Shown: piece by piece, positions 32,422-52,011 of the stretch
How positions within the stretch are numbered: position 1 is the first letter of the stretch
How the letters are laid out: every line of letters starts with the position of its first letter
Source: Streptomyces sp. NBC_00683
GTDB taxonomy: Bacteria > Actinomycetota > Actinomycetes > Streptomycetales > Streptomycetaceae
Length of the DNA: 64,000 nucleotides
Direction: 5' to 3'
Assembly (NCBI RefSeq): GCF_036226745.1
Contig: NZ_CP109013.1
Location: 2,852,001-2,916,000, forward strand
Translations under genes and position numbers: made by a program
The notes under the pieces: model-generated
The model's input: only the letters and a program-made list of their open reading frames with translations
Told to the model about the DNA's origin: nothing
Database searches by the model: none

Positions 32422-32524
32422 GGTGTCTCCTAGTTTCGGGAGGGCGCCGGGTCGTACGCGCGGATTGCGCGTCCGTGAACCGGGGCCGACGTACCAGTCT
32501 GCCAGGACCGGCCGTATCTCCCAA

Positions 32525-50819: not shown

Positions 50820-50884
50820 CCACACCCCGCCGGACGTGGCGGAGCCCGGGAGTCGTATCCAGCTCCCGGGCCCCTGGGGATGCC
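50820..50884. repeat. 65-bp direct repeat, copy 2
   Basis: Identical to 49738-49802. On the minus strand it follows directly after the second tRNA-like RNA, and its inverted repeat could end that transcript; on the plus strand it follows the membrane protein gene by 185 bp. Confidence 0.9.
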
Positions 50885-50897
50885 ACCCAATTGCGCT

Positions 50898-51033
50898 TGC
50901 CAGCGCCGTTTAAGAGTGCGGATCAGTCGTCAGACCGTCGCGTTCTTCCATTGAACTACCGCGCCAAGAAGAGGTGCAGGCCGGATTCGAACCAGCATTC
51001 AACGGTGTTCGTCCGTACCCGGTCGATCTGGCA
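50898..51033 (-). ncRNA. tRNA-like noncoding RNA 2 (closed acceptor, permuted order)
   Basis: Read on the minus strand: 3' half first, with T-arm GCTGG-TTCGAAT-CCGGC (50996-50980) and acceptor-like CTGCACC. Then come a 7-nt loop TCTTCTT and the complementary GGCGCGG (50965-50959; five Watson-Crick pairs, one G-U, one mismatch), then TA and a D-arm GTTC-AATGGAA-GAAC. The arms join in the helix ACCGTTG/CGACGGT (51006-51000 with 50940-50934, 7 bp). Outside this, GTACGGA pairs with TCCGCAC (6 of 7) and TGCCAG with CTGGCA (6 of 6). No ordinary tRNA reading fits. It resembles YrlA-type Y RNAs. Confidence 0.65.
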
Positions 51034-51055
51034 GTCGGTGGCAATACTGAAGCTT

Positions 51056-51187
51056 GAGCGAGAGTCTGAGTGTGATCGCGGTTGCCTCTGCCATGTTGGG
51101 CCACCCCGGCCAGTGGTGCCGGGGGAAGGACTCGAACCTTCACCTTTGCCGCGTCTTCAGGCTGAACGTCAGTTTCAGTCTGCGCTC
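51056..51187 (-). ncRNA. tRNA-like noncoding RNA 1 (closed acceptor, permuted order)
   Basis: Read on the minus strand: T-arm GAAGG-TTCGAGT-CCTTC (51141-51125), acceptor-like CCCCGGC (51124-51118), loop ACCACTG of 7 nt that includes an ACCA, perfect complement GCCGGGG (51110-51104), TG, then a D-arm GCC...TGG...GGC (51101-51084). The anticodon-stem position is CGCGG/CCGCG (51153-51149 with 51081-51077). Nested outside are AGCCTGA/TCAGACT (6 of 7) and GAGCG/CGCTC (51187-51183 with 51060-51056). It lies 93 bp after the stop of the 243-aa protein gene on the same strand. Confidence 0.7.
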
Positions 51188-51279
51188 GTCACACGGACCG
51201 GACCTCAACCGGCCGCGTGATGGTGCGCACCCCCACGACAGTGCGCGGGGGCGATTGTGGATGCTACCTGCGTCCGGTG

Positions 51280-52011
51280 CTAGCCGAACAGGTAGCCGAA
51301 CACCGCGTCGCCGACCCGCTGGTCGGTGACCTCGGCGCTGTTGGCCTCCTCGCGGGCGAACTTGACCGCGTGCTGCAGCTTCTCGACCCGCTCCAGCAGC
51401 TCGTTCACCCGCTTCGCCGGAAGCGAACCGGAGAACTTCACGGTCGTCCAGTACCCGATCGGCACGTCCTCGTAGTACACGTCGACCTGCGCCGGGTGCT
51501 TCTCGGTCGCCTCGGCCTTGACGTGGTTGCGCGGGACCTTCTTCGTCCGGATCGTGCGGACCGGGTCGGTCTTCCACCAGTCCGTCGACGGGTCGAGCGA
51601 CCAGGACTCGGAGGCGTCGAGCACGGGGAGCTTCTTCACGAAGGTGTGCAGGTCGGTGAGCTGCTTCTCCAGGAAGAGCAGGTAGCTGACCGGTACTTCG
51701 CGGACGATCGTCCGTCCGTCGACGGTGACGTCGGCGCGGGCTGCGCAGTTGGCCCAGTCCTTGGTGGCGGTCACGTCGAACAGCCGGGTCAGGGACGCGG
51801 AGATCTCACGCAGCACGTCCTCGGTCTTGACCTGTACGCGCGTGGACTCGGGCGGCAGCTGCTCGCCCTCCTCGTCCTTCGGCTGGTACGTACGCGAGAT
51901 ACCGGCCAGCTGTACGGGCTTCTGCACCTTGTGGTGTGCCGCGGTGATGTCCTGGAGCGACTTGCTCTTGACACCCTTTTCCACGGCGATGATCTGGTTG
52001 AGCTTCGCCAC
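51280..52011 (-). CDS. Conserved protein of unknown function next to tRNA-like RNAs
   Basis: 243 aa, soluble, charged, starting MAKLNQIIAVEKGVKSKSLQ from GTG 52011 with GGGGGG 4 nt upstream. It has no signal peptide or membrane segment. It has a helix-rich N-terminus, a Trp-rich middle (SWSLDPSTDWWKTDP) followed by a basic stretch (RTIRTKKVPRNHVK), and a helical C-terminus. The closest label I can recall is DUF7873, also found in actinophages; I am not certain. It is not a TROVE/Ro60 protein by appearance. Its 3' end lies 93 bp upstream of the first tRNA-like RNA, so a joint transcript is plausible and an RNA-binding role is an inference from that. Confidence 0.75.
   Translation of the reverse strand: MAKLNQIIAVEKGVKSKSLQDITAAHHKVQKPVQLAGISRTYQPKDEEGEQLPPESTRVQVKTEDVLREISASLTRLFDVTATKDWANCAARADVTVDGRTIVREVPVSYLLFLEKQLTDLHTFVKKLPVLDASESWSLDPSTDWWKTDPVRTIRTKKVPRNHVKAEATEKHPAQVDVYYEDVPIGYWTTVKFSGSLPAKRVNELLERVEKLQHAVKFAREEANSAEVTDQRVGDAVFGYLFG

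Follow-up and report, generated by a model that had tools for sequence, protein, structure and literature searches.

A DUF7873 gene and two adjacent structured RNAs, each predicted to carry a tRNA-like module with a closed acceptor stem, recur in many Streptomyces genomes and in diverse phages, and this recurrence points to an undescribed protein–RNA machine that resembles the Ro/Y RNA system yet is separate from it. The cassette was analysed in a 64,000-nt stretch of Streptomyces sp. NBC_00683 (NZ_CP109013.1, positions 2,852,001–2,916,000; GCF_036226745.1), which is referred to as the window. By analogy with bacterial Y RNAs, DUF7873 and its RNAs probably (with a probability of roughly 0.55) form a Ro-independent, Y-RNA-like ribonucleoprotein (RNP), in which the tRNA-like modules would dock tRNA-binding factors. 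To our knowledge, the closed-acceptor tRNA mimic is known from bacterial Y RNAs, which are read as partners of Ro60/Rsr. We rate the tRNA mimic as YrlA-like, and the protein partner, the basal part of the RNAs, and the cassette carried by phages as undescribed in the literature searched; no description of DUF7873 or of the cassette was found in the open-licence literature, subscription papers lying mostly outside this scope.

Organization of the locus

RNA1 and RNA2 both lie directly 3′ of the DUF7873 gene on the same (minus) strand. The features are listed below, where R1 and R2 denote covariance models built from the RNA2 rows and the RNA1 rows, respectively, of a Streptomyces alignment, the window being among the rows of both.

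51280–52011, minus strand: DUF7873 gene (PF25283; 243 aa; Pfam E = 3.6e-121), the protein-coding partner, upstream of RNA1 and RNA2
51226–51253, minus strand: hairpin A (CCCCCGCG...CGTGGGGG), just 3′ of the DUF7873 stop; seen in the sequence, with conserved columns in the 81-locus alignment
51191–51218, minus strand: hairpin B, between the DUF7873 gene and RNA1; seen in the sequence, which is variable and less conserved in the 81-locus alignment
51056–51187, minus strand: RNA1, basal helices plus a YrlA-type tRNA-like module (Rfam YrlA, 26.3 bits; covariation; R2, 154.9 bits)
51125–51141, minus strand: T-arm of RNA1, GAAGG-TTCGAGT-CCTTC, with loop TTCGAGT; stem pairs changed on both sides
51104–51124, minus strand: acceptor-like stem of RNA1, CCCCGGC-ACCACTG-GCCGGGG, 7/7 pairs, with a 7-nt closing loop (ACCACTG)
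51084–51101, minus strand: D-arm of RNA1, GG in the loop; 3 pairs, 95.2% of cells paired in 43 relatives
51153–51149 with 51081–51077, minus strand: anticodon-position helix of RNA1, CGCGG/CCGCG, from the sequence
Within RNA1, minus strand: outer helices GAGCG/CGCTC (5/5 pairs) and AGACTGA/TCAGACT (6/7 pairs), from the sequence
50881–51043, minus strand: RNA2, four helices plus a tRNA-like module (covariation; Rfam YrlA, 23.1 bits; R1, 176.9 bits over 51044–50880)
51043–51037/50887–50881, 51033–51028/50903–50898, 51018–51012/50922–50916, and 51006–51000/50940–50934, minus strand: the four helices of RNA2
50980–50996, minus strand: T-arm of RNA2, loop TTCGAAT (sequence and covariation)
50959–50979, minus strand: acceptor-like stem of RNA2, 6/7 pairs, closing loop TCTTCTT (sequence and covariation)
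50942–50956, minus strand: D-arm of RNA2, GG in the loop (sequence and covariation)
50841–50874, minus strand: hairpin C, a GC-rich stem with a GGATACG loop, which closes the conserved stretch

Hairpin A is a possible terminator or processing site. In the 900 nt that follow the gene on its 3′ side, a GGATAYG hairpin was found in 62 of 80 Streptomyces, 22 of 78 viral, and 4 of 16 collection loci, compared with 5, 0, and 0, respectively, in the upstream control; a hairpin with this loop also follows RNA2 in several phages (L116, L117, L118, and L120). Elsewhere in the window, an ordinary L31-Actinobacteria ribosomal protein leader is present at 32443–32489 (Rfam RF03158, 58.1 bits).

The tRNA-like motif and its chance level

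The sequence-only reading of RNA1 had described a T-arm, a closed acceptor stem, a D-arm, and nested helices, all of which were recovered on re-reading of the sequence at the minus-strand positions given there. Its outer helix of six pairs in seven is present in the window, but the consensus of the relatives pairs slightly differently, with a bulge. It had also held that the halves, read as ordinary neighbouring tRNAs, give neither an acceptor nor an anticodon stem. ARAGORN found no tRNA at RNA1, and there is no complete cloverleaf at the locus. All Rfam families stay below their cut-offs at RNA1, and the Rfam tRNA model matches just a 21-nt T-arm piece at the locus (14.4 bits). In tmRNA (RF00023), a tRNA-like domain is likewise carried on a larger RNA, but the Rfam tmRNA model gave no match at RNA1 or RNA2.

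The motif by itself is only mildly surprising. A T-arm, a closed acceptor stem of 7/7 pairs (loop of at most 11 nt), and a D-arm occurred in this combination 6 times in 100 first-order Markov sequences of 64 kb, and 54 times when acceptor stems of 6/7 or better were accepted. The single-sequence fold energy of 51189–50881 is ordinary (z −0.30; 39 of 100 shuffles equally good), and minimum free energy was set aside as uninformative. RNA1 and RNA2 stand beyond chance because they are conserved with covariation. An origin by chance, or from two adjacent ordinary tRNAs or remnants of tRNAs pieced together, is hardly credible: tandem tRNA genes do mimic the pattern, with R1 E-values of about 1e-6 in two genomes, but there is no complete tRNA at the locus, and covariation contradicts a tandem-tRNA origin of RNA1 and RNA2.

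In the two genomes concerned, tandem tRNA genes imitate the permuted RNA across their junction (L257:2534–2685 and L258:2741–2892) and score with both YrlA and R1; these matches are false positives, and such gene pairs are a trap for automated YrlA searches. A protein-coding reading of 51056–51187 was also rejected: overlapping open frames exist, but compensatory changes and indels in the relatives favour RNA.

Conservation and covariation of RNA1 and RNA2

The Streptomyces alignment comprises 81 rows, i.e. the window and the best 80 of 565 DUF7873 loci. A conserved region extends 3′ of the gene from approximately 51189 to approximately 50840, much of it at ≥90% across the 81 loci. As judged by reading the alignment, RNA2 is present in 81 of 81 rows. 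The T-arm pattern of RNA1 occurs in 51 of the 81 loci, and in the remaining 30 a shorter hairpin replaces it, the RNA1 base being nearly invariant.

Covariation within Streptomyces was evaluated, after a 95.5% identity cut, in 42 of the 81 loci for RNA2 and in 33 of the 51 loci with the RNA1 module for RNA1. In RNA2, 96.9% of the cells are paired and 22 of 42 pairs have changed on both sides; none of 500 shuffles scored as high by any measure, and sliding the partners by 1–3 columns left 37–51% of the cells paired. Covariation of RNA1 is modest within the genus, with 97.1% of the cells paired and both-side changes in 6 of 31 pairs, a number reached in 1 of 500 shuffles; on pair types, 14 of 500 shuffles matched the observed value. 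The lowest helices of RNA1 say little because they hardly vary.

The two models were searched against 95 DUF7873 loci (79 viral, 15 phage, and 1 from Nonomuraea). At E ≤ 1e-6, and with some near-duplicates among the loci, R1 matched 70, R2 matched 57, either matched 76, and both matched 51, leaving 19 with neither. Sources with such a match were hand-picked to avoid duplicates (58 of 70 for R1 and 43 of 57 for R2); the R1 set has one extra partial row (L180), and both sets include the bacterial Nonomuraea locus (L130). Since these sets consist of positives aligned to the model, they lean towards its structure, and the following values are to be read in that light: RNA2 in the 58 chosen non-Streptomyces loci is 93.5% paired, with both-side changes in 41 of 42 pairs and a covariation score of 0.856 (versus 0.212 when shuffled and at most 0.142 when slid), and RNA1 in the 43 chosen relatives is 92.5% paired, with both-side changes in 24 of 31 pairs, including all seven pairs of the acceptor stem in the fitted alignment.

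An independent check with MAFFT and RNAalifold was carried out on 33 of these sources, which were picked for short acceptor loops, have a mean identity of 51%, and include no Streptomyces. The T-arm, the closed acceptor stem, the D-arm, and two basal helix regions were recovered, and 31 of the 33 predicted pairs are compensated; the outermost and anticodon-position helices were not predicted in this set. The anticodon-position helix of RNA2 (helix 4) is compensated but less regular, with 83.3% of the cells paired in Streptomyces and 81.6% in the R1-aligned relatives. At the level of sequence comparison, the compensatory changes in relatives show that the structures of RNA1 and RNA2 are real. 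Covariation was one of two refutation tests named beforehand for a closed-acceptor tRNA mimic that has its 3′ half first, and it came out in favour of this fold.

Linkage of the RNAs to DUF7873 in Streptomyces

The RNAs are linked to DUF7873. This gene was identified in 58 of 121 Streptomyces genomes, and full-length RNA2 (R1, E ≤ 1.2e-10) was detected in 58 of the 58 DUF7873-positive and 0 of the 63 DUF7873-negative genomes, in a scan with strict filters by which weak matches may be lost. RNA2 lies 135–340 nt from DUF7873 in all 58 genomes. Twenty-two weaker R1 rows were also obtained from the 121 genomes, of which 20 are located 0.9–1.2 kb from a TROVE match and two are the tandem tRNA genes mentioned above.

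The genes flanking the cassette in the window were found in just 0 to 5 of 80 loci (tblastn, ≥40% identity), a comparison in which full 6-kb flanks were available for 63 of the 80 loci and DUF7873 is present in 80 of 80 by construction. Flanking genes are thus rarely common to the loci, and the gene and its RNAs stay together independently of their surroundings.

At least 7,783 DUF7873 relatives are present among the 7,999 scored candidates listed, and their names include Kitasatospora, Streptantibioticus, and Actinocrinis; one relative lies in Nonomuraea. In an even sample of the phylum, DUF7873 was found in 6 of 246 genomes, all of them Streptomyces. Of 14 control genomes, one, Deinobacterium chartae, matches both TROVE and DUF7873. 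The AlphaFold2 model of the protein (72 sequences; mean pLDDT, 92.4; pTM, 0.68) consists of long helices and a long beta hairpin. Neither an RNA-binding family nor a confident fold match was found for DUF7873, which does not in itself make the fold new; the protein is calculated to carry almost no net charge (pI 7.2).

Relationship to YrlA and TROVE/Rsr

The YrlA-type fold proposed in the sequence-only reading is the right resemblance. Rfam YrlA (RF02553) matches both RNAs end to end, i.e. RNA1 at 51164–51059 (26.3 bits, E 0.0015) and RNA2 at 51019–50912 (23.1 bits, E 0.013), though far below its gathering cut-off of 69 bits, and both RNAs have the YrlA order of T-arm, closed acceptor stem, and D-arm. 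As in the YrlA/Rsr system (TROVE, PF05731), these elements stand on a basal stem, and two RNAs accompany one protein gene, as they do at 6 of the 11 Streptomyces TROVE loci that were chosen for comparison. Unlike in that system, the gene linked to the RNAs is DUF7873 and not TROVE, and the base of RNA2 is longer, with four helices.

Moreover, NBC_00683 has a TROVE–YrlA pair of its own at a separate locus. The single TROVE match in this genome is located at 6.526 Mb, 3.6 Mb from the cassette, and a YrlA-like RNA of 51.9 bits (L001:528–629), which R1 also matches (29.7 bits), lies directly upstream of this divergent TROVE gene. The 11 TROVE loci, picked for an R1 match beside TROVE, all contain YrlA matches (best matches, 32.6–46.9 bits), two of them in each of six loci. 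No YrlA match was obtained in three other TROVE stretches, each covering approximately 1.5 kb on both sides of the TROVE match, so that the parallel of two RNAs does not extend to Rsr loci in general. Because the TROVE-side YrlAs (51.9 and 32.6–46.9 bits) also fall below 69 bits, the Rfam cut-off is strict for Streptomyces.

Among the 121 Streptomyces genomes, TROVE was found in 68 and DUF7873 in 58: both in 36, DUF7873 alone in 22, TROVE alone in 32, and neither in 31. No association between the two was detected (TROVE in 36 of the 58 DUF7873-positive and 32 of the 63 DUF7873-negative genomes; Fisher p = 0.27). Of 55 phage and viral records with DUF7873, several of which may be fragments, TROVE is present in 5 and RtcB in 4. 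The separate TROVE–YrlA locus, the lack of association, and the rarity of TROVE in the phage records indicate that two systems exist in parallel, one pairing TROVE with YrlA-like RNAs and the other pairing DUF7873 with RNA1 and RNA2. It is accordingly improbable that RNA1 and RNA2 are ordinary YrlA RNAs working with a distant TROVE/Rsr protein. The weak full-length YrlA matches, the occurrence of TROVE in NBC_00683, and the R1 match to the TROVE-side YrlA are compatible with such a partnership, but no TROVE match was found in 22 of the 58 DUF7873 genomes or in 50 of the 55 phage and viral records (several being fragments), the TROVE gene of NBC_00683 has its own, better-scoring YrlA, and the RNAs are linked to DUF7873.

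Comparison with circularly permuted tRNA genes

Circularly permuted tRNA genes, the other comparison drawn in the sequence-only reading, share with RNA1 and RNA2 a 3′ half that precedes the 5′ half and a loop that joins the acceptor halves. In addition, the acceptor loop starts with NCCA in 22 of 49 RNA1-side and 28 of 64 RNA2-side motif matches (viral loci L132–L210 and L100), a start that suggests either descent from tRNA or mimicry of the tRNA 3′ end. Unlike permuted tRNA genes, the RNAs have helices in place of an anticodon loop: the helices at this position (helix 4) are compensated and run on into the basal stem, such that joining the RNA ends does not regain an anticodon stem-loop. Nor is CCA conserved, as it is missing from the RNA2 loop in the window (TCT) and in the Streptomyces rows inspected, and the acceptor loops of the viral motif matches can be 4–7 nt long. 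Maturation of RNA1 and RNA2 into tRNAs is very improbable on these grounds, and the interpretation was abandoned.

DUF7873 and tRNA-like RNAs in phages

DUF7873 was identified in 73 of 50,697 phage records, namely those of Vibrio (29), Gordonia (12), Rhizobium (12), Klebsiella (7), Serratia (6), Arthrobacter (3), Pseudanabaena (2), Rhodococcus (1), and Microcoleus (1) phages. In IMG/VR, one search gave 28 DUF7873 loci and another gave 193 relatives, of which the best 80 were used. DUF7873 is accompanied by at least one of the RNAs in tailed phages of Arthrobacter, Gordonia, Rhodococcus, Pseudanabaena, Klebsiella, Rhizobium, and Vibrio, and none of the 15 phage records inspected annotates the RNAs as such. 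The permuted tRNA-like motif was found within 1 kb 3′ of the gene at least once in 68 and at least twice in 46 of the 80 viral loci, and was absent from 12; 3 of the 80 loci are truncated. In the controls, matches were obtained in 0 of 80 viral loci on the opposite strand and in 18 of 80 upstream; the latter may represent tRNA arrays.

Eight of the 19 loci negative with both models belong to Rhizobium, Klebsiella, Vibrio, and Microcoleus phages and one Pseudanabaena phage (L121–L127 and L129). The motif scan still gives one or two tRNA-like elements in these loci except that of the Microcoleus phage (L126), which has a weaker RNA1 match (E 6.6e-6). In this phage, DUF7873 is separated from the RNA1 match by a HEARO RNA together with an open frame (L126:3950–4159), which looks like the insertion of a mobile element into the cassette.

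Rfam searches of 14 DUF7873 loci (L128 and L131 left out) gave no family at cut-off on the RNAs; the other matches near these loci are ordinary tRNAs, a tmRNA, and HEARO. The tmRNA match (89 bits) lies inside a tRNA array near the cassette of Gordonia phage Phendrix (L117:3072–3600). In a Klebsiella phage, an annotated suppressor tRNA overlaps an RNA2-like element (L123:4018–4097), and this annotation is probably a mis-call of the tRNA mimic.

The arrangement in phages also bears on the idea that the RNAs are a structured 3′ untranslated region regulating DUF7873 itself and not trans-acting RNAs. In favour of this idea, they usually follow the gene immediately and share its strand, but they precede it in L181 and are encoded on the opposite strand in L178, and the HEARO RNA separates the gene from the RNA1 match in L126; we therefore regard such a role as quite improbable.

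The cassette is often found among or near phage tRNA genes. In the phages Mimi, Phendrix, NiceHouse, and RHph_TM21B, DUF7873 is located among tRNA genes, and ARAGORN detected at least one tRNA in the stretch around 48 of the 80 viral loci and none around 32. Phage tRNA arrays carry RNA-repair genes, RtcB, TROVE, and others, according to PMC7824862; the DUF7873 cassette shares their setting but differs from the arrays described there in that few DUF7873 records contain RtcB (4 of 55) or TROVE (5 of 55) and its RNAs are not tRNAs.

This setting is the basis for considering the RNAs as sponges for host enzymes that attack or process tRNA, stabilized by DUF7873, carried by phages as a decoy or counter-defence, and later taken over by Streptomyces; on this view, phages would keep the RNAs beside their tRNA genes because both serve the same purpose. 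We consider this rather unlikely. It accords with the proximity to phage tRNA genes, with the role of phage tRNAs and RNA repair in countering tRNA-cleaving defence (PMC7824862), and with the suggestion, in PMC7790460, that the tRNA-like domain of YrlA is a competitive inhibitor of an anticodon nuclease. The RNAs, however, have no anticodon loop to serve as bait for anticodon nucleases, 32 of the 80 viral loci have no tRNA in the stretch examined, 58 of the 121 Streptomyces genomes retain the cassette, and a missing RNA1 module is tolerated in 30 of 81 loci.

A proposed Y-RNA-like RNP

The preferred reading remains a Y-RNA-like RNP built on DUF7873. The cassette would be self-contained, consisting of the DUF7873 gene and two adjacent noncoding RNA structures, in each of which a conserved basal stem would carry the tRNA-like module (T-arm, closed acceptor stem, and D-arm). 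We infer that RNA1 and RNA2 are transcribed as RNA and that DUF7873 binding, docking, and function follow the scheme given here. According to PMC8394870, YrlA binds Rsr via its basal stem and its T-loop and D-loop are modified by TruB and DusA, and a Y RNA tethers Rsr to PNPase (likewise PMC7790460). By analogy with Rsr–YrlA–PNPase, DUF7873 most likely binds the basal parts of the RNAs, and the modules would dock onto proteins that normally grip tRNA; the particle would thereby tether DUF7873 to a nuclease, a modification or repair enzyme, or a translation factor. The loss of the RNA1 module with its base kept (30 of 81 loci) and the presence of one gene with usually two RNAs fit this mechanism. 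Phages probably spread the cassette, often together with their tRNA genes, and its neighbourhoods in Streptomyces are variable. A role in conflict centred on tRNA would suit the phage setting (PMC7824862).

A more specific scenario, which we put forward tentatively and which falls somewhat short of being probable, is that the cassette encodes a second tRNA-mimic RNP, based on DUF7873 instead of Ro60 and usually having two tRNA-like RNAs, which tailed phages infecting hosts of several phyla may carry, often beside tRNA genes, as a means of steering or blocking the enzymes by which the host handles tRNA, and which is kept in about half of Streptomyces species.

In practical terms, annotation overlooks these RNAs, and the Rfam cut-off also misses YrlA at the chosen Streptomyces TROVE loci. 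The cassette offers a concrete protein–RNA pair for the question of tRNA-like RNAs in phage–host conflict and in RNA quality control. If the proposed RNP is real, the use of the same RNA trick with another protein, spread over phages and Streptomyces, would imply that mimicking tRNA serves RNPs as a general plug-in.
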